A DNA stretch of 64,000 nucleotides from positions 1,990,001 through 2,054,000 of the forward strand of contig NZ_CP104850.1 in assembly GCF_028864635.1 (NCBI RefSeq), written 5' to 3'. The stretch is from Cloacibacterium sp. TD35 (GTDB taxonomy: Bacteria > Bacteroidota > Bacteroidia > Flavobacteriales > Weeksellaceae). Shown piece after piece: positions 6,747 through 52,743 of the stretch. The notes under the pieces are model-generated. The model had not been told where the DNA came from. It was given only the letters and a program-made list of their open reading frames with translations, and did no database searches. Position numbers and translations under genes: made by a program. How positions within the stretch are numbered: the first letter of the stretch is position 1; each line of letters begins with the position of its first letter.

Positions 6747-7622
6747 TTATCTGTAACCAAAATTTTTGAGGTCTCTTTCGTTTTTACGCCAGTCTTTTTT
6801 AACTTTTACAAAAAGATTAAGATGAATTTTCTTTGAAAAGAATTTCTCTAAATCTATTCTGGCTTCGGTTCCCACTTTTTTGATGGCTTCACCTTTGTGA
6901 CCTATGAGAATTCCTTTTTGCGTGTCTCTTTCTACGTAAATAATAGAGTCTATAAAGATAATTCCTTCTTTTTCTTTGAACATTTCTGTTACCACTTCTA
7001 CAGAATACGGAATTTCTTTGTCGTAATTCAGCAATATTTTTTCTCTGATGGTTTCGTTTACGAAGAAACGTTCAGACTTATCTGTAAACTGGTCTTTGTC
7101 GTAATAAGGCGGATTTTCGGGCAATAAAGCTTTTAATTTTGGCAAAATTAAATCGGTATTAAAACCTTCTAAAGCTGAAATCGGTAAAATTTCTGCTTTT
7201 TCAATTTTATTATGCCAATACTCTACTTTTTCGAGCATCGCTTCTTGATTAGAAATGTCTATTTTATTGAGTAAAATAAGGACTGGAACTGGAATTTTGT
7301 TCAGTTTATCTACCAAAAATTCATTCGGTTCTTCTTTATCCGTAACATCTACGATGAACAAGAAAACGTCTGCATCTTGTAAAGAATCTTTTACAAAATC
7401 CATCATTTTTTCCTGCAATTCGTACTTGGGTTCTAGAACTCCTGGAGTGTCAGAAAATACGATTTGTAGGTCTTCTTCATTATAAATTCCAAAAATACGG
7501 TGTCTTGTTGTTTGTGCTTTTTGGGTTACAATCGCCAGTTTCTCACCCATCAATTGATTGAGCAATGTAGATTTTCCTGCGTTTGGTTTCCCAACTATAT
7601 TTACAAATCCTGCTTTGTGCAT
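6747..7622 (-). CDS. era: GTPase Era
   Basis: A 291-aa essential ribosome-assembly GTPase. G1 is GKPNAGKST at residues 11-19, G3 is DTPG at 59-62, G4 is NKID at 120-123 and G5 is SALEG. The C-terminal KH domain carries the GHKG loop in GILIGHKGEAIKK and binds the 3' end of 16S rRNA. Full length and all motifs intact. Its -7 promoter element (TACCTTTG on the minus strand) lies at 7672-7679. Acts in the cytoplasm and at the inner membrane in 30S maturation. Confidence 0.97.
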   Translation of the reverse strand: MHKAGFVNIVGKPNAGKSTLLNQLMGEKLAIVTQKAQTTRHRIFGIYNEEDLQIVFSDTPGVLEPKYELQEKMMDFVKDSLQDADVFLFIVDVTDKEEPNEFLVDKLNKIPVPVLILLNKIDISNQEAMLEKVEYWHNKIEKAEILPISALEGFNTDLILPKLKALLPENPPYYDKDQFTDKSERFFVNETIREKILLNYDKEIPYSVEVVTEMFKEKEGIIFIDSIIYVERDTQKGILIGHKGEAIKKVGTEARIDLEKFFSKKIHLNLFVKVKKDWRKNERDLKNFGYR

Positions 7623-7671
7623 TTGTTTTACTTAAAATTAAAGGATTAAAATATTTAAAATTTCTTTTTTG

Positions 7672-7679
7672 CAAAGGTA
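7672..7679 (-). promoter_or_regulatory. Promoter -7 element for era
   Basis: Minus-strand TACCTTTG matches the Bacteroidetes -7 consensus TAnnTTTG, about 50 nt upstream of the era ATG. No clear -33 TTG was found at 17-19 nt, so only half of the promoter is supported. Confidence 0.5.
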
Positions 7680-7751
7680 AGGAAAATAGAATTGAGAACT
7701 AATTAAAACGAAAAAATTGTCATTGCGAAGGAATATCAAGATATTTTGAAA

Positions 7752-43075: not shown

Positions 43076-43312
43076 TTAATAAACTTCTTGTACTTTTATA
43101 TTCGGGCAGTTTTTCTCTATCCAAGTGGTATCAAATTCTTTGATTTCTCTTCTTTGTCCTTTGTAAATGTAATATTCATTAGGCGTTTGTGAATTACCAT
43201 CAATCACTTTTGGCATTTTATTGATGATTTTTTCTTCTGGGCAATCTTGGATTTTTGCCACAGCACAACTCGAAAGAGTAAAAGCTACTATGATAAAAAA
43301 TAAAATTTTCAT
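43076..43312 (-). CDS. Small lipoprotein, 78 aa
   Basis: Signal peptide with lipobox MKILFFIIVAFTLSSC, Cys16 lipidation site, then a polar 62-residue domain (CPEEKIINKMPKVI, EYYIYKGQRREIKEF, IEKNCPNIKVQEVY) with two further cysteines that could form a disulfide. It starts 4 nt after the E1 stop, so it is cotranscribed with E1. No known domain; function unknown. Confidence 0.75.
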   Translation of the reverse strand: MKILFFIIVAFTLSSCAVAKIQDCPEEKIINKMPKVIDGNSQTPNEYYIYKGQRREIKEFDTTWIEKNCPNIKVQEVY

Positions 43313-45866: not shown

Positions 45867-45911
45867 GAGCTTAACTTAATTAATATGAATGTATGAATAA
45901 TTGTGAAGATG

Positions 45912-46008
45912 TTCTTTAAAAATCTCCTCCGCTGCTCTGAGAACAAGCAGCGAAAGGAGAAAACACAAACGATGAAAAAAAATTTATTTTACTTTTTATT
46001 AGATTTAT
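45912..46008 (-). repeat. Duplicated 3' flank with hairpin, copy 1
   Basis: About 97 bp almost identical to 46383-46481. Holds a hairpin: minus-strand CTCCTTTCGCTGCT pairs with AGCAGCGGAGGAG (45924-45959) over 13 bp with one bulge, followed by ATTTTT. It lies 14 nt beyond the stop of the 73-aa peptide gene, so it can serve as that gene's terminator or 3' RNA structure. The rest is A/T-rich. Confidence 0.75.
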
Positions 46009-46021
46009 TTTTAGTTGGATG

Positions 46022-46243
46022 CTATTTTTTTAGAAATCTTAATGCTTCTTCTTCGCTATGCAAAACTACAGTAGTTTTATATTCATTACTATTTCTTAGA
46101 TTTCTTCTATTTTGAATAATTTCTAGAATCTCAATATCAGTTTTGCTTAATGCAGCATCAGATTTTTCTGAACTATTAGATTGTTTAAATGATAATACTG
46201 CGATTGAAGCCAATATTAACAATACAGGTGTAAATTTTTTCAT
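46022..46243 (-). CDS. Small exported peptide, 73 aa
   Basis: Hydrophobic signal segment MKKFTPVLLILASIAVLSF followed by a charged segment SEKSDAALSKTDIEILEI and IIQNRRNLRNSNEYKTTVV. Homologous to the 85-aa peptide at 46491: both share LSK-x-D, then IQ, R, LR and N spacing. Unlike that paralogue it has Phe where a lipobox Cys would be, so no lipidation. No known domain. Its 3' flank is duplicated with the paralogue's. The neighbouring TPR/AraC genes suggest a shared system; the role is unknown. Confidence 0.6.
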   Translation of the reverse strand: MKKFTPVLLILASIAVLSFKQSNSSEKSDAALSKTDIEILEIIQNRRNLRNSNEYKTTVVLHSEEEALRFLKK

Positions 46244-46382
46244 AACAGTAAACTTTTAAATTATTATTTACAATATCTAAGATTTTGAAATAGTTAATTA
46301 TTTGTAGAAATATTTCACTATAAACATAAATCTTTGATTTTGTTTTTATTTTAATTTTCCAAATGTTGTTTTTTAAAAAAAT

Positions 46383-46481
46383 TTCTTTAAAAATCTCCTT
46401 CGCTACTATGAGAATAAGCAGCGAAAGGAGAAAACACAAACGATGAAAAAAAATTTTATTTTACTTTTTTATTAGATTTAT
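46383..46481 (-). repeat. Duplicated 3' flank with hairpin, copy 2
   Basis: Second copy of the 97-bp flank at 45912. The hairpin arms here are CTCCTTCGCT and AGCGAAAGGAG (46395-46430), with one bulged A; minus-strand ATTTTT follows. It lies 10 nt beyond the stop of the 85-aa lipoprotein gene. The two copies differ by a few bases in the loop and one arm. Confidence 0.75.
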
Positions 46482-46490
46482 ATGTTGTAA

Positions 46491-46748
46491 TTATCTTGGT
46501 GGAGGTACTATTTGTCCATCTGCCCCTTCAATTGCCATTTCTTCAACAGACATCTCAACTGTTCTTGTAGTTGACAAAATAGTATCATTCTTAATATTTT
46601 TAATTAAATCATTCTTCTGTCTTAAACTTCTACTTTGTTGAATAAATTTAAGATTAGTTGCATCTTCTTTTGATAATAATTCATCTTCTTGTCTACATGA
46701 AATAAAGAAAAGAACTAATGATAAACTAAAGAATACTAATTTTTTCAT
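46491..46748 (-). CDS. Small surface-lipoprotein-like peptide, 85 aa
   Basis: Start placed at MKKLVFFSLSLVLFFISC, which is a clear signal peptide with lipobox ISC; the longer frame at 46817 has no rationale. After Cys18 comes RQEDE, close to the K/Q-(D/E)-rich lipoprotein export signal known from Capnocytophaga, so surface exposure is possible. The body is polar: LSKEDATNLKFIQQSRSLRQ, then a Thr-rich stretch ending PPPR. Divergent from the first TPR/AraC gene with a 193-bp spacer, a layout typical of a regulator and its target. Confidence 0.65.
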   Translation of the reverse strand: MKKLVFFSLSLVLFFISCRQEDELLSKEDATNLKFIQQSRSLRQKNDLIKNIKNDTILSTTRTVEMSVEEMAIEGADGQIVPPPR

Positions 46749-46941
46749 AATTTTATTTTTTTGATGAGAAAAATGTATGTTGATTGACGTCATTGAGACA
46801 AATTTTCGGACTGTCATTTTATAAAAATTGAGTGTTATTTCATAAATTTTATATCAGTTTTTAAAAAAAATAACATTAATATTGTAAAAGTTTACAAATA
46901 ACTCATAAACTAATTCATTATTTCGCCTTTATTCATTGATT

Positions 46942-48729
46942 ATGAAGAATTTATTACAATATAAAATTGTTTTTTTTATATTCTTTTTATTTTTTGTTCA
47001 ATTTAATTCGCAAGACACAAAAATTGATGATTTAAATAATGAGACTATTGAAAAAAAGATTGACAGTCTACATAATAACCCAAATAAAGCATGGGAAATA
47101 ATTAATCTTTATATAAAAAAATCTAAAAAAGAAAAGAATGATGAATCATTACTCTATGCTTATAGATATGCAGGTAATTTTTCGCAGTATCCAGAAAATT
47201 TAAAATACGCAGACTCAGCTTTGGCAATTGGTAAAAAATCAAACAATAAAAAACTATTAACTGAAGCATATCTAAATAGAGGCTTTGTATTTATGAGTCA
47301 ATCTTTATATCAAAAAGCATTAGATGACATTTTAATTGCAAATAAATATTCAAATGAACTTAATGATTCATATACTGTAAACTGTAATAAATACTTAATT
47401 GCTCAAAATAAAATTTATTTAGGCTTATATGAAGAGGCTAATAAAGAGCTCTCAAGTTGCATAGAATATTTTAAAAAAAATCTAACTAAAACTTCTGATT
47501 TAGGGAAAAACTATCAAATGTTTTATTTATATTCTCTAATGAGTCTAATAGACACTAATACTAAGTTAAGAAGACATGAAGAAAATAATGTTTTATTAAA
47601 AACTGCTTTTGAATATATCAAACAAAATAATCTAAAACAATATACTCCTTATTTTATTTCATGTGATGGTGTAGATGATTATTTTAAAAAAAATTATAAA
47701 CCCGCAATCAAAAAACTCTCTGAAGCGATAAGACTATATAATGACCAATGGCCACATATTACTGATATTTTTTATATTGGGCTTTCTAATTGGAAACTTG
47801 GAAAAAGAGATGTAGCTGTTAAATATTTTGAGGAAATTGATAAAGAATATGACAAGTCAAAAAAATTAAATCCTGAATTTAGACCAGCATATGAACTATT
47901 AATTAAGTACAATGACTCCATTGGTAATAGAGATAAGCAATTAAAATATATCAACACCTTAATGTCTCTTGATAAAAATTATGAAAAAAATTATAAGTAC
48001 CTGTTCTCTAAGATTAATAAAGAATATGATACTCATAAACTCATAAATGAAAAGAACAAAATTGAAAGTTCATTAAAAAATCAAAGAACTATAATTAGTT
48101 CAATATTATTAATAACCATACTTGCATCATTATTCTATTGGAATCGTTATAACTCTTTACAAAAAAAATACAAAGAAAAATTTGAAGAAATTATCTCACA
48201 GAAACCTATTTTAGAAAAGATAGAGACTCTTGCAGAAGTAGAATCAAAACAGGAAGATGATCTAAATCTAAAAACTCTTAATATAACTGACAAAATAAAA
48301 ATTACCGCTCCGAAAAATTCTTCTGAACTAGAGTTTTACAACAAAATACCTGGTCTCAATCCTATTTTAGTTCAAAATATTTTGCAACAACTAGAAAAAT
48401 TCGAAGAAGAACTTAGGTTTACTGATAATCAAATGTCATTGAGACTTTTAAGTGAAGAATTTAACACCAATATACCTTATCTTTCTAAAATCATAAATGT
48501 ATACAAAGGAAAAAATTTCAACTATTATATTAATGATCTAAGAATCGATTATATTATTGAACTCCTAAAAAATGATGCTACCTACTTAAATTACGACATC
48601 AAAAATCTAGCGTCTTTAGCCGGCTTTACAAATGCGGTAAACTTTTCTGATAACTTCCAGAGAAAATTCGAGATTAAACCTTCCTATTTCATTAAAATGA
48701 TGAAGGAAAATATTAAAACTAATTCATAA
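46942..48729 (+). CDS. Membrane TPR-AraC regulator A, 595 aa
   Basis: Signal segment IVFFIFFLFFVQFNSQ, then TPR-like helical repeats to about 350 (AIGKKSNNKKLLTEAYLNRG, YQKALDDILIANKYSNELND, DKEYDKSKKLNPEFRPAYEL). A TM helix at about 383-402 (TIISSILLITILASLFYW) and a basic linker lead to a C-terminal AraC-type HTH at 498-585 (LLSEEFNTNIPYLSKIINVY, IKNLASLAGFTNAVNFSDNF). Read as a one-component system: periplasmic TPR sensor, cytosolic DNA binding. Start set at ATG 46942. It is the most divergent of three tandem paralogues and lies divergent from the lipoprotein gene. Ligand and targets unknown. Confidence 0.8.
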   Translation: MKNLLQYKIVFFIFFLFFVQFNSQDTKIDDLNNETIEKKIDSLHNNPNKAWEIINLYIKKSKKEKNDESLLYAYRYAGNFSQYPENLKYADSALAIGKKSNNKKLLTEAYLNRGFVFMSQSLYQKALDDILIANKYSNELNDSYTVNCNKYLIAQNKIYLGLYEEANKELSSCIEYFKKNLTKTSDLGKNYQMFYLYSLMSLIDTNTKLRRHEENNVLLKTAFEYIKQNNLKQYTPYFISCDGVDDYFKKNYKPAIKKLSEAIRLYNDQWPHITDIFYIGLSNWKLGKRDVAVKYFEEIDKEYDKSKKLNPEFRPAYELLIKYNDSIGNRDKQLKYINTLMSLDKNYEKNYKYLFSKINKEYDTHKLINEKNKIESSLKNQRTIISSILLITILASLFYWNRYNSLQKKYKEKFEEIISQKPILEKIETLAEVESKQEDDLNLKTLNITDKIKITAPKNSSELEFYNKIPGLNPILVQNILQQLEKFEEELRFTDNQMSLRLLSEEFNTNIPYLSKIINVYKGKNFNYYINDLRIDYIIELLKNDATYLNYDIKNLASLAGFTNAVNFSDNFQRKFEIKPSYFIKMMKENIKTNS

Positions 48730-48733
48730 AAAT

Positions 48734-48769
48734 AAAACTTCAACATTTTCATGTTGAAGTTTTTTTTGA
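48734..48769 (+). terminator. Intrinsic terminator after regulator A
   Basis: AAAACTTCAACA / TGTTGAAGTTTT hairpin plus T tract. A related hairpin after regulator B (50719-50745) has lost its T tract (CCCC after the stem). Confidence 0.85.
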
Positions 48770-48986
48770 AGAAGAACTTTACTATTTTAATAGTATTGTT
48801 TTTTGTTTGGTTATTAAATTTACCCCTTTTTAATTGTGTTCTTAAAAGTTGAAGCAAAACTAACCATTTTAAAGCTTGCATAATAAAAAGCAAACTCGGA
48901 ATTCATAAAAATTAACTGGGATTTTTTGAAAAATATCATATTTCTTTTCTCATTTTTTTGTTTTATCATTGTAAAAAAAAATAAGT
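48770..48986 (+). promoter_or_regulatory. Shared upstream region of regulator B
   Basis: About 217 bp resembling the region upstream of regulator C (50745-50965). Shared landmarks are the 14-bp inverted repeat ACTATT-TT-AATAGT (48781-48794), the block ACTCGGAATTCATAAAAA and the block TTTCTCATTTTTTTGTTTTATC near the start codon. The palindrome may be an operator for the regulators themselves. No clean TAnnTTTG promoter was found. No ORF. Confidence 0.45.
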
Positions 48987-50708
48987 TTGAAAAACACTTA
49001 TAACAAATATCTGATAATTAGAAATTTAGTATTGATAATTTTATTTTTTTTTCAAATGAGTGTAAAAGCTCAAAAGAAAATATTAGAAGAATTATCATTC
49101 TTAGAGATTGAGAATAAAATTGATAGTTTAATTTCTATTAACGGCAATACTTTGCCAGTAATTAAACATTACATAAAGAAATCTAAAAAAGAAAATAACG
49201 ATCAGGCGTTGATTTATGCTTTCAGATATGCTAGTAAAGCCACACCTGAAGATATTGGATATAAATACGCGGATAGTGCAATAGTAATTGCAAAAAAAAC
49301 TAATAATAACGAACTTATTTCAGAGGCTTTACTTAACAAAGGAGTACTCTTAATGGATTATTATCAATATGAACCCGCCCTAGATTATATTTTGCAAGCA
49401 AAAGAATACTTGAATAATGTAAAAAATGATTACATTAATTACAAAACTCTTTATTTTATAGCTCAAAACAGAATGTTACTAGGGCAAATCACAGAAGCTA
49501 AAAAACATCTTAGTATATGTGTTGATTTTTTCAAACAGCGTATAAATGAAGCTGAATTAGGATATGATTACAAAACTTATTACAGCTATTCTCTTATGAG
49601 CTTAATTGACTGTAATACAAAACTAAAAAAACATTCTGAAAATAATTCTTTATACAAAGAAGCTTACGAATTCATTAATAAAAACAATGCAAGATATTTA
49701 ATTCCATATTTTATATCCTGTGAAGGAACTGATGCTTATTATCTTAAAAACTATTCTGTGGCAATTAATAAACTTAAAAAAGCACAACATTTATATCAAG
49801 ATAGTTGGCCTCATTACACAGAAATTTTCTATATAGGAATGTCTTATTGGAAATTAGGAAATAAAAAACAAGCTGTAAAATATTTCGAAAAACTAGATAA
49901 AGAATATTATAAAGATAAAAATCAAGATCCTCAGTTCAGACCTGCTTACGAATTACTTATAGAATACTACGCTTCTAAAAATAATACCAATAAGCAACTC
50001 GAATACATTAACAAATTAATGTCTTTGGATAAATCCTACGAAAAGAACTACAAATATCTTTTTGCTAAAATTCATAAAGAATATGATACAAAAAAGCTTA
50101 TTGACGAAAAAAACAGCATTGAAAATAACTTAAAAATTCATCAATATATTACCATTTTCATCATTACATTAAGTATATTGATTATTTCGTTTTCTACTTA
50201 TAAATATCTCCAGATGCAGAGAAGATATAGAGAGCGATTTAAACAAATGATTTCACAAAAAAATACAGAAATCGAAAAAATGCCAGTTACAATCGTTGAA
50301 GAGAATAAAAAAACAACTCCAAAAATCGCTGGTCTTAGTGAATCAACTATTACATATATTCTAGAACAGTTAGAAATTTTCGAAAAAGAACAGCTATTTC
50401 TGGATTCGAAAATCACTCAAAAACTGCTCAGCGAAAAGTTAGGAACCAACCCTACTTATCTCTCTAAAATCATCAATACATACAAAAAGAAAAACTTCAG
50501 CAATTATCTCAATGACTTGAGGCTAGAATATATTGTGGAACTACTCAAAACAGAACATAAATACTTGAATAGAGATATAAAAGAATTGGCAAATATTGCA
50601 GGTTTTACAAATGCTGAGGCATTTTCGGATAACTTCCAGAGAAAATTTGAGATTAAACCTTATTACTTCATTAAAATGATGAGGGAAAATATTAAAACTT
50701 ATTCTTAA
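48987..50708 (+). CDS. Membrane TPR-AraC regulator B, 573 aa
   Basis: Same architecture as A: signal segment IIRNLVLIILFFFQMSVKAQ, TPR-like repeats to about 350, TM at 387-408 (ITIFIITLSILIISFSTY), AraC HTH at 475-567 (KLLSEKLGTNPTYLSKIINT, IKELANIAGFTNAEAFSDNF). The best start is TTG at 48987; the next ATG lies inside the signal segment. From residue 246 to near the end it is almost identical to regulator C (only a handful of nucleotide differences over 979 bp), while the first 245 residues are divergent. Confidence 0.8.
   Translation: MKNTYNKYLIIRNLVLIILFFFQMSVKAQKKILEELSFLEIENKIDSLISINGNTLPVIKHYIKKSKKENNDQALIYAFRYASKATPEDIGYKYADSAIVIAKKTNNNELISEALLNKGVLLMDYYQYEPALDYILQAKEYLNNVKNDYINYKTLYFIAQNRMLLGQITEAKKHLSICVDFFKQRINEAELGYDYKTYYSYSLMSLIDCNTKLKKHSENNSLYKEAYEFINKNNARYLIPYFISCEGTDAYYLKNYSVAINKLKKAQHLYQDSWPHYTEIFYIGMSYWKLGNKKQAVKYFEKLDKEYYKDKNQDPQFRPAYELLIEYYASKNNTNKQLEYINKLMSLDKSYEKNYKYLFAKIHKEYDTKKLIDEKNSIENNLKIHQYITIFIITLSILIISFSTYKYLQMQRRYRERFKQMISQKNTEIEKMPVTIVEENKKTTPKIAGLSESTITYILEQLEIFEKEQLFLDSKITQKLLSEKLGTNPTYLSKIINTYKKKNFSNYLNDLRLEYIVELLKTEHKYLNRDIKELANIAGFTNAEAFSDNFQRKFEIKPYYFIKMMRENIKTYS
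49722..50700 (+). repeat. 979-bp near-identical segment, copy in B
   Basis: From GAAGGAACTGATGC to ATTAAAACTT, matches 51754-52732 at a constant offset of 2032 bp. I counted about six mismatches by eye, so it is above 99 percent identical. It covers the last sensor TPRs, the TM helix, the linker and the HTH. Confidence 0.9.
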
Positions 50709-51045
50709 AAATATAAAAAAACTTCAACATTTTCATGTTGAAGCCCCTTTGAAGAAGAACTTTACTATTTTAATAGTATTGTTTTTTTTGATTGGTTATT
50801 AAATCTTACCCCTTTTTATTGTGTTTCTATAAGATGAAGCAAAGCTACTCTTTTCATTATTTCCTTACTAAAAAGTGAACTCGGAATTCATAAAAAACAA
50901 CTGGGATTTTTTGAAAAAATATCATATTTCGTTTCTCATTTTTTTGTTTTATCATTGTATTAACGAAATTCAAACTAACAATAAAACATAAATAATTAAT
51001 TATCAATTAATTAAAAAAAATCAACACCAATCAAACAACAAAAAA
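50709..51045 (+). promoter_or_regulatory. Upstream region of regulator C
   Basis: 337 bp without a gene. The first 250 bp are homologous to the region before regulator B: decayed terminator hairpin at 50719-50745, inverted repeat ACTATT-TT-AATAGT at 50764-50777, and the block ACTCGGAATTCATAAAAAA. The last 80 bp before the ATG (TTAATTATCAATTAATT and repeated CAAACAACAAAA) are specific to C. No convincing promoter box was seen. Confidence 0.45.
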
Positions 51046-52743
51046 ATGATTCCTTCAAAAAAAAGAATTTTAATCATCGCTATACTCTTTTTTTTACCAT
51101 TTTATATTTTTTCACAGCTTTCTGTAAATTATAATAAGTTAGAAGAAAATATAATTAATTATAAAATTTCTGAATCGGATAGATGGAAATTAATCTACAA
51201 TTATATTAATATCGCAAAAAAAAATCAAAATAATGAAGCTATTATCAATTCATATAAAATAGCAAGTGTTTATTCTATTTTTCCCGAAAATTTAAAATAT
51301 GCTGACAGTGCATTAATAATTAGCAAAAAATTAAATTCTCCAAAATTTCTTGCGATTACTTATCTGAATAGAGGAATTATTTCTATGGATAATTCTGAAT
51401 ATATAAAATCACTAGATGATGTTTTAACTGCTCATAAATACGCTTTGACTTCTGAAGATTATTATTATATATTTAAGTCAAAATATTATATTGCACAAAA
51501 CAAAATTTATCTTGGCCAGATTAAAGATGCTAACAATATTTTAAAAGAATGTGTTTCATTTTTCAAAAAAAACACCAATACTAAAGAATACGGAAAAGAT
51601 TACATTCAAATGTATATTTTTTCAATGATGAATTACATTGATACAAATTCTAAACTAAATAAACAAAAAGAAAATCTATCTTTAATAAAAGAAGTTATAA
51701 ACTTTTGTGATAAAAATAAATTAGAAAATTACATCCCTTATTTTTTATCTTCCGAAGGAACTGATGCTTATTATCTTAAAAACTATTCTGTGGCAATTAA
51801 TAAACTTAAAAAAGCACAACATTTATATCAAGATAGTTGGCCTCATTACACAGAAATTTTCTATATAGGAATGTCTTATTGGAAATTAGGAAATAAAAAA
51901 CAAGCTGTAAAATATTTCGAAAAACTAGATAAAGAATATTATAAAGATAAAAATCAAGATCCTCAGTTCAGACCTGCTTACGAATTACTTATAGAATACT
52001 ACGCTTCTAAAAATAATACCAATAAGCAACTCGAATACATTAACAAATTAATGTCTTTGGATAAATCCTACGAAAAGAACTACAAATATCTTTTTGCTAA
52101 AATTCATAAAGAATATGATACAAAAAAGCTTATTGACGAAAAAAACAGCATTGAAAATAACTTAAAAATTCATCAATATATTACCATTTTCATCATTATA
52201 TTAAGTATATTGATTATTTCGTTTTCTACTTATAAATATCTCCAGATGCAGAGAAGATACAGAGAGCGATTTAAACAAATGATTTCACAAAAAAATACAG
52301 AAATCGAAAAAATGCCAGTTACAATCGTTGAAGAGAATAAAAAAACAACTCCAAAAATCGCAGGTCTTAGTGAATCAACTATTACATATATTCTAGAACA
52401 GTTAGAAATTTTCGAAAAAGAACAGCTATTTCTGGATTCGAAAATCACTCAAAAACTGCTCAGCGAAAAGTTAGGAACCAACCCTACTTATCTCTCTAAA
52501 ATCATCAATACATACAAAAAGAAAAACTTCAGCAATTATCTCAATGACTTGAGGCTAGAATATATTGTGGAACTACTCAAAACAGAACATAAATACTTGA
52601 ATAGAGATATAAAAGAATTGGCAAATATTGCAGGTTTTACAAATGCTGAGGCATTTTCGGATAACTTCCAGAGAAGATTTGAGATTAAACCTTCATACTT
52701 CATTAAAATGATGAGGGAAAATATTAAAACTTCCTCTCTATAA
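51046..52743 (+). CDS. Membrane TPR-AraC regulator C, 565 aa
   Basis: Signal segment MIPSKKRILIIAILFFLPFY, TPR-like repeats, TM at about 378-399, AraC HTH at 466-558. Sequence from residue 237 to almost the end is nearly identical to B; the sensor-side N-terminal 236 residues differ strongly. The final residues (KTSSL) are encoded by bases that also form the 3' end of the convergent polyprenyl synthase gene (20-bp overlap). The gene arose by tandem duplication with sensor divergence or by recombination. Confidence 0.8.
   Translation: MIPSKKRILIIAILFFLPFYIFSQLSVNYNKLEENIINYKISESDRWKLIYNYINIAKKNQNNEAIINSYKIASVYSIFPENLKYADSALIISKKLNSPKFLAITYLNRGIISMDNSEYIKSLDDVLTAHKYALTSEDYYYIFKSKYYIAQNKIYLGQIKDANNILKECVSFFKKNTNTKEYGKDYIQMYIFSMMNYIDTNSKLNKQKENLSLIKEVINFCDKNKLENYIPYFLSSEGTDAYYLKNYSVAINKLKKAQHLYQDSWPHYTEIFYIGMSYWKLGNKKQAVKYFEKLDKEYYKDKNQDPQFRPAYELLIEYYASKNNTNKQLEYINKLMSLDKSYEKNYKYLFAKIHKEYDTKKLIDEKNSIENNLKIHQYITIFIIILSILIISFSTYKYLQMQRRYRERFKQMISQKNTEIEKMPVTIVEENKKTTPKIAGLSESTITYILEQLEIFEKEQLFLDSKITQKLLSEKLGTNPTYLSKIINTYKKKNFSNYLNDLRLEYIVELLKTEHKYLNRDIKELANIAGFTNAEAFSDNFQRRFEIKPSYFIKMMRENIKTSSL
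51754..52732 (+). repeat. 979-bp near-identical segment, copy in C
   Basis: Partner of 49722-50700; offset 2032 bp. Amino-acid differences seen are only Thr/Ile in the TM, Lys/Arg and Tyr/Ser near the C-terminus. Confidence 0.9.

Follow-up and report, generated by a model that had tools for sequence, protein, structure and literature searches.

A candidate family of membrane-bound, RRNPP-like peptide receptors paired with small exported lipoproteins in Flavobacteriales

We analysed a 64,000-nucleotide window of the 2.6 Mb genome of Cloacibacterium sp. TD35, in which five studied genes within 46022-52743 encode two small peptides (minus strand) and three receptors in tandem (plus strand). The original prediction had described exported peptides of 73 and 85 aa beside three tandem receptors, and open reading frames for all five are confirmed there. 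The features of the locus are:

45910..46005, minus strand: duplicated 3′ element, copy 2, after pep1 (sequence comparison)
46022..46243, minus strand: pep1, a 73-aa exported paralogue (alignment, loci of relatives, dN/dS)
46395..46478, minus strand: duplicated 3′ element, copy 1, after pep2, inverted-repeat and terminator-like (sequence comparison)
46491..46748, minus strand: pep2, an 85-aa lipoprotein (ORF scan, peptide family alignment, divergent position from receptor A orthologues)
46770..46802, minus strand: Bacteroidetes-type promoter of pep2, −33 TTTG at 46799-46802 and −7 TACATTTT at 46770-46777 (conserved columns)
46815..46892, no strand: operator-like array with cores TTTATAAA at 46818, TTCATAAA at 46839 and ATTGTAAA at 46881
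46942..48729, plus strand: receptor A, 595 aa from ATG 46942 (domain search, hydrophobicity, structure model)
48337..48711, plus strand: AraC-type HTH region of receptor A, residues 466-590 (HTH_18 match at residues 503-584 and model)
48987..50708, plus strand: receptor B, 573 aa, TTG start, a tandem paralogue without its own peptide (ORF scan)
51046..52743, plus strand: receptor C, 565 aa (ORF scan, B/C comparison)

Pep2, whose 85 aa are counted from a conserved MKK start within a longest open reading frame of 108 aa at the same place, is composed of a signal with lipobox (ISCRQEDE), a predicted helix and the tail ADGQIVPPPR, and C-R and P-P are invariant in the alignment of its family. Export was judged by hydrophobicity and lipobox rules made for this analysis in place of SignalP. 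Pep2 alone of the two peptides has a lipobox (SCRQ) and a PPPR tail; pep1 has neither the lipobox Cys nor the PP tail. Pep1 is present in C. normanense too and is under purifying selection (dN/dS 0.145). The proposed homology of the two peptides is borne out by alignment (38%) and not by BLASTP, which gives no match between them. An element of about 85 bp lies 3′ of both genes, with a 27-base core (at most 3 mismatches) at exactly two places in the genome, and this common element together with the alignment makes pep1 and pep2 look like old tandem duplicates. Neither window peptide gives a Pfam or NCBIfam match above cut-off, and we found no credible small exported gene in the gaps before receptors B and C. 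Beyond the window, at about 2,566,640-2,568,880, the genome has another such pair, with the peptide tail DDEPKRDKQHW.

Receptor A, for which a TTG at 46936 is a possible alternative start, comprises a signal at residues 1-24, a predicted periplasmic TPR region at 33-361, a transmembrane helix at about 383-401 and an HTH region at 460-594. This plan of signal, TPR, one transmembrane helix and AraC HTH had been read from the sequence beforehand and is supported by TPR matches in receptors A, B and C, by HTH_18 matches of 33.5 bits in A (just below the cut-off of 33.6; 37.8 bits in a genome-wide search), 40.6 in B and 43.8 in C (both above), and by a structure model of A (pLDDT 80, pTM 0.53). In the model, residues 2-24 form an N-terminal helix and residues 33-361 a series of helix pairs; helix 366-419 is long, contains the hydrophobic stretch 383-401 and is followed by a low-confidence linker and the HTH helices (460-594). 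Residue Q24, which follows the signal, does not vary among 22 sequences, as would fit signal cleavage, and an N-terminal signal followed by one internal transmembrane helix places the TPRs in the periplasm by parity, so that the TPRs of receptor A are predicted to face that compartment. From about codon 240 onward, the DNA of receptors B and C shows 95-100% identity per 90-base bin, and the two are diverged in the N-terminal sensor half (41-62% DNA identity), a pattern in which the sensor half appears to be swapped or fast-changed between otherwise near-identical genes. By eye, the regions upstream of B and C are alike.

With four first-look candidates scored per genome, a search of 320 genomes of the family yields at least 41 close receptor A orthologues (E ≤ 1.2e-175), and each of these 41 adjoins a divergent gene for a small exported peptide. 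The peptide profile gives 39 strong matches in these genomes (E ≤ 2.8e-18) before a gap to 1.3e-9, and all 39 adjoin and diverge from an A-orthologue at a distance of 170-269 bp; the two remaining orthologues have, at the same place, a weaker peptide (G012, locus L121) and a Cys-less peptide (G041, locus L277) with the same sequence as that of locus L036 in Halpernia humi. At all 23 named loci from the receptor alignment a small exported peptide diverges from the A-orthologue (22 lipoproteins and the Cys-less peptide of L036, in two tandem copies), compared with a comparable neighbour at 1 of 142 other genes of these loci, and the genes beyond the pair vary between genera. Twenty weaker peptide matches, chosen from more than 100 listed with the match reaching towards the C-terminus and retrieved with flanks of about 5 kb, likewise all diverge from a TPR-TM-AraC gene, which in most cases belongs to another receptor clade, P8. 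Many of the remaining weaker matches look like signal-peptide matches of unrelated lipoproteins. The original prediction had staked itself on co-occurrence of peptide and receptor in other genomes, and that co-occurrence is what these 41 orthologues and 20 sampled matches display.

A CR-lipoprotein partner is present for 95 of 109 receptors in a count that includes repeated entries from one species and requires the lipobox to be followed by CR, so for the pairing we rely instead on the 39 strong matches and the 142 background genes. The 14 misses include tandem or array receptors without a peptide (L010, which is B; L011, which is C; L090; L097; and second copies in L026, L037 and L017), receptors with a peptide present (Cys-less in L036 and L138; SCE in L015, the P8 receptor of the window's own genome) and members of a double-glycine clade (L014, L148, L151 and L156). 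Among TPR-TM-AraC proteins of other subfamilies, 0 of 20 have a CR-lipoprotein neighbour, and the lipobox-like ORF beside 1 of these 20 is an unlikely one. Chance neighbourhood is ruled out by 41/41 against a background of 1/142, and a tendency of TPR-TM-AraC genes in general to have small lipoprotein neighbours by 0/20 in the other subfamilies. Many pairs are inherited, so these counts are not independent events, and the pairing is as firm as sequence alone allows. Since neither B nor C has its own peptide, the unit consists of a single receptor with a single peptide, and the array is a local expansion. As first described, one peptide gene is divergent from receptor A, the only receptor so placed; this gene is pep2, the cognate peptide of receptor A in a conserved divergent pair.

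In a tree of 86 receptors built by a quick method, with long branches flagged, 71 rows form one group (the A clade, its sister clade M, P8 and the double-glycine clade P6), L194 stands next to it and 14 other TPR-TM-AraC proteins fall outside (SH-aLRT 99). P8 receptors are 27-31% identical to A. Five genomes searched for all receptors have 2 to 5 superclade receptors each, a count that leaves out a 268-codon receptor fragment of G208 (L200) and matches of other subfamilies. Twelve of these 18 members have a small exported peptide (one Cys-less), and the other six are B and C, three with a double-glycine leader peptide and L156 with neither; the receptor L139/L187 of G225, which automated scans had missed because of its non-ATG start, has a confirmed frame and a peptide. 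Among 296 genomes of the order, the receptor profile matches in 75, 29 of them outside the window's family and 28 of these in one family, f3. Eighteen of 20 fetched loci, from f3, form a sister group of P8 (FastTree), and at 17 of the 18 the receptor diverges from a gene for a tail-less lipoprotein of 219-258 aa. Another 22 loci (L255-L276) group with P6 receptors (FastTree), and by eye a double-glycine leader peptide lies divergent or just downstream at 14 of the 22, a count that excludes the doubtful L270. Of four double-glycine leaders tested, two match class I lanthipeptide leaders below threshold (17.0 and 15.9 bits against a cut-off of 22), and at several loci an adjacent gene resembles an S9 peptidase gene. 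The f3 lipoproteins and double-glycine peptides suggest that the rule may be an exported partner for each superclade receptor, with a class set by receptor clade.

The small peptides follow a common plan of a lipobox, in most cases with R and acidic residues after it, a variable middle and a fixed C-terminal tail, which is DGEIVPPPKK-like in the A type and DPPxKDGTxW-like in the P8 type. PP followed by at most four residues ends all 35 A-clade peptides and 6 of the 7 from sister clade M, and (D/E/N)P(P/K) followed by W/Y is found in 24 of 24 P8-clade peptides. The tail of the own receptor clade is thus present in 65 of 66 peptides, neither tail in one (L205, clade M) and the tail of the other clade in none. 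Part of the P8 set was recruited by similarity to A-type peptides, which works against, and not for, a different tail. The P8 tail motif occurs twice in 5 of 24 precursors (L115, both of L124, L125 and L130), in parallel to pheromone precursors that carry several pheromone copies. Two peptides lost the Cys and kept the tail (L138 in G208 and L036), and pep1 of the window lost both; the tail, more than the lipid, therefore seems to be the fixed function of the peptide. Lengths are 63-95 aa in the A and sister clades and 68-134 aa in P8, with a few above 100, and a low-confidence peptide model (mean pLDDT 62.7) contains a helix at 27-65 and a loose tail. The P8-type peptide L116 matches NF050142 (PG1828 family lipoprotein) at 30.9 bits, below the cut-off of 50, perhaps through signal and lipobox only. 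Lpp offers a model of peptidoglycan anchoring through a C-terminal Lys; such anchoring is ruled out by several tails that end in R, D, N or Q. The start of the mature peptide, C-R-Q-x-(D/E)-(D/E) with the acidic pair at +5/+6 from the Cys, resembles the export signal of surface lipoproteins, for which C-X-K-(D/E)2-X is optimal and position critical (PMC5080379).

The predicted sensor fold is closest to peptide-binding TPRs, including those of NprR and Rap, a likeness of fold that need not extend to function. Among solved structures the top matches are partner-bound LGN (Z up to 24.5), TSK-histone H3.1 (24.1) and APPBP2-degron (23.9), followed by NprR (Z 22) and Rap (Z 19-21.5), several of the Rap structures with pheromones; Foldseek on the TPR part likewise places LGN first and Rap and NprR lower. 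Between the window and C. normanense, dN/dS of receptor A is 0.21 in the N-terminal TPR half, 0.042 in the membrane-near TPRs, 0.016 in the HTH and 0.235 in the linker, so the N-terminal half changes faster than the membrane-near TPRs and HTH and about as fast as the linker; the value for pep2 is 0.68. When membrane-near TPRs and HTH are controlled for, peptide distance in 31 A-clade and 22 P8-type pairs (L205 of clade M being one of the latter) tracks the N-terminal TPR half (partial r 0.48 and 0.27, p 0.001), with no such relation to the membrane-near half (0.06 and −0.07). Peptide distance also correlates with the HTH (0.27, 0.20), the signal peptide (0.29, 0.32) and the P8 linker (0.27), and the permutation ignores the tree, so we treat this co-divergence as supportive only.

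The start codons of receptor A and pep2 are separated by 193 bp. In 20 A-clade intergenic regions, the window's among them, we call the peptide promoter on TTTG, about 21 bp and TAnnTTTG, which we take to be the Bacteroidetes promoter consensus. Upstream of it lie TTnnTAAA-like repeats, in the window as cores 21 and 42 bp apart with a weaker in-phase slot near 46860. Self-similarity across 20 A-clade intergenic regions peaks at 21 and 42 bp, with z-scores for the 21-bp periodicity that are inflated because the sequences are related; two helical turns (21 bp) are the usual spacing of AraC half-sites. No 21-bp peak occurs in the P8 clade (23 regions, one of them sister-clade). By eye, P8 intergenic regions instead have a GACGTCCTAATT..AATTAGGAC-like inverted repeat.

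Drawing on features computed directly (the pairing, the topology signals, the predicted fold, the conservation of the tail and its type by clade, and the A-clade operator-like array), we propose with a probability of roughly 0.6 that a periplasmic RRNPP-like receptor senses the tail of the peptide it is paired with and controls the gene for that peptide. The small protein would be exported, usually anchored by lipid, and present its C-terminal tail to the periplasm, where the inner-membrane receptor would bind the tail or a fragment of it in the TPR groove, as RRNPP receptors bind pheromones. The bound state would pass through the single transmembrane helix to the cytoplasmic AraC domain, which would sit on the 21-bp-phased sites by the peptide promoter and control the peptide gene in a feedback loop, presumably along with other targets. 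Here we infer the binding step, the direction of regulation, the source of the peptide (the own cell or neighbours) and what the loop reports. The peptide sensing originally envisaged is partly supported: it is in keeping with the co-occurrence, the RRNPP-like fold, the clade-matched tail and the operator-like array, and the grouping of three receptors with two peptides is a local expansion. Several observations count against a ligand: a regulator and its target gene would likewise stay together and co-diverge; the f3 partner and pep1 are without the tail, B and C are without peptides and L205 has neither tail; and the 21-bp periodicity of the A clade was not seen in P8. The surface-export-like residues could also carry the peptide to where a periplasmic receptor would not meet it.

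Such residues after the Cys suit a different account, in which the receptor senses envelope state, a nutrient or a foreign peptide and the lipoprotein is merely its main output at the cell surface. The divergent layout with an operator-like array by the peptide promoter is the usual regulator/target arrangement, and f3 relatives pair with a larger lipoprotein. We nevertheless consider this account unlikely, because it does not predict a short, constant C-terminal tail behind a middle that varies, a tail motif repeated in some precursors, a tail type matching the receptor clade or a TPR fold nearest to peptide binders. Less probable again is that the peptide acts as a sentinel of lipoprotein transport, such that it would normally move on to the outer membrane or surface, and failed export would lead to build-up at the inner membrane, an encounter with the receptor and a response, on the model of NlpE as a sentinel for Cpx. 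The lipobox with its export-signal-like residues, the predicted inner-membrane location of the receptor and a helix with flexible tail in the low-confidence peptide model would all fit such a reporter, but the Cys-less peptides beside intact receptors in Halpernia humi (L036, and the same sequence in G041) and G208 (L138) could not report on lipoprotein transport. Inherited neighbours without a functional link deserve next to no credence: pairs are mostly vertical within genera, yet the pairing is common to two receptor clades as diverged as A and P8, sits in different surroundings and at several paralogous places in one genome, and has a background of 1 in 142 genes.

Extending the tail-sensing proposal, we suggest tentatively, and at somewhat short of even odds, that Flavobacteriales have a peptide-signalling family of their own, made of receptors that cross the membrane once, with an RRNPP-like TPR sensor in the periplasm and an AraC domain in the cytoplasm; each receptor would have an exported partner of its own, in several parallel channels per genome and with no peptide import. 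Equally tentative is the assignment of partner types by receptor clade to a tail-bearing lipopeptide, a double-glycine peptide or a larger lipoprotein. We found no description of such a receptor/peptide pair in the open-licence literature. If true, RRNPP-like logic would operate in the periplasm, one protein would lead from peptide to DNA with no importer and no kinase, and this would occur in a Gram-negative group where the literature search found no peptide signalling of such design. The short clade-specific tails (DGEIVPPPKK-like and DPPVKDGTRW-like) are ready synthetic ligands that make the idea directly testable, and the 2 to 5 superclade receptors in each of five genomes open cross-talk and specificity to study.

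Among known systems, NlpE and RcsF are small envelope-sentinel lipoproteins that talk to an inner-membrane sensor, and the pair described here resembles them in joining a small lipoprotein to a predicted inner-membrane sensor and differs in having no histidine kinase and in the existence of Cys-less peptides. With AraC/XylS regulators the window receptors share 21-bp-phased direct repeats and a C-terminal HTH_18 (at gathering score in B and C, 40.6 and 43.8 against 33.6; 33.5 in A, 37.8 genome-wide), and in place of a soluble ligand domain they have a membrane anchor and a predicted periplasmic TPR sensor. As in ToxR, CadC and TcpP, a one-component design would hold the DNA-binding domain at the membrane beneath a periplasmic sensor, here with a TPR sensor and an AraC domain. 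Transmembrane transcription regulators are enriched in Bacteroidota according to PMC10269533, in whose main text a term count gives zero occurrences of 'AraC' and 'TPR', and receptor A combines HTH_18, the hydrophobic stretch 383-401 and the long helix 366-419 in one chain.

The pair is like the RRNPP systems (Rap, NprR, PlcR, PrgX and Rgg) in its adjacent genes, exported small precursor, TPR receptor fold near NprR and Rap, and fast-changing sensor half and peptide. It differs in a C-terminal AraC HTH on receptors of 565-642 aa, in a precursor that is usually a lipoprotein and in its occurrence in Bacteroidota, not Firmicutes. An RRNPP survey analysed, by its own account, only complete Firmicutes genomes and defined a propeptide of 10-100 aa with Sec export and exopeptidase maturation, a receptor of 250-500 aa with peptide-binding TPRs, and directly adjacent genes (PMC10075063). 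Set beside that definition, the window has propeptides of 73 and 85 aa, signal sequences seen by rule of thumb, TPRs with a predicted NprR/Rap-like fold and genes 193 bp apart (170-269 bp in 39 genomes), together with receptors of 565-595 aa (up to 642 in a relative) and TPRs predicted by parity to lie outside the cytoplasm. A survey so confined to Firmicutes and to 250-500-aa receptors would have missed such pairs. Departing in size and, as predicted, in intracellular location, the pair is not classed as an RRNPP system by that definition; it would work like one, with a sensor that is predicted to be periplasmic and membrane-tethered and that, unlike RRNPP receptors, would therefore need no import step.

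Comparison of receptors B and C, two of the three tandem TPR-TM-AraC receptors, at the DNA level (window 48987-52743) reveals near-identity from approximately codon 240 to the gene end, whereas their N-terminal sensor halves share only 41–62% identity. Judging from the sequences, this contrast between the sensor half and the remainder looks like the result of gene conversion or of a swapped sensor half. A small ORF lies near the receptor/peptide locus, and a Pfam search with it returned zero matches above the cut-off:

Window 43076-43312, − strand: small lipoprotein-like ORF, 78 aa, LSSCAVAK

The divergently encoded peptide family includes a Cys-less form in Halpernia humi, where two copies differ by one residue and share the tail DGDPTKPPRD:

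L036:7224-7415 and 7548-7739, − strand: two tandem Cys-less peptide copies

Outside the window, the Cloacibacterium sp. TD35 genome encodes a paralogous receptor and, downstream of it, a double-glycine leader peptide of 64 aa (KKLSLNKLQITKIKTGLNSIKGG...):

L165:1985-4034 (own genome ~2,543,984-2,546,033): paralogous TPR-TM-AraC receptor

Double-glycine leader peptides, judged by eye, also accompany related receptors of other genomes (14 of 22 loci), and several loci of these receptors hold what we take to be an S9-peptidase-like gene.

Within P8, a second receptor clade, lipopeptides of four loci (L115, L124, L125 and L130) each carry a DPPKNGTHW-like motif twice, with two tandem genes for such lipopeptides in L124. 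By eye, a GACGTCCTAATT..AATTAGGAC-like inverted repeat is common to P8-clade intergenic regions, occurring in the upstream regions at L116, L118, L119, L127, L131, L141 and L143. Two further loci contain a presumably MauE/DoxX-like membrane protein near the receptor:

L166:5091-6035 and L183:540-1536: P8-type receptors with a membrane-protein neighbor

An exported protein of ~100 aa is also encoded near both receptors. Sister to the P8 clade are receptors from f3, another family of Flavobacteriales (L237-L254), and divergent from these in 17 of 18 loci is a larger lipoprotein of 219–258 aa, most examples of which display a RKDxDWxxxV-like motif by eye.
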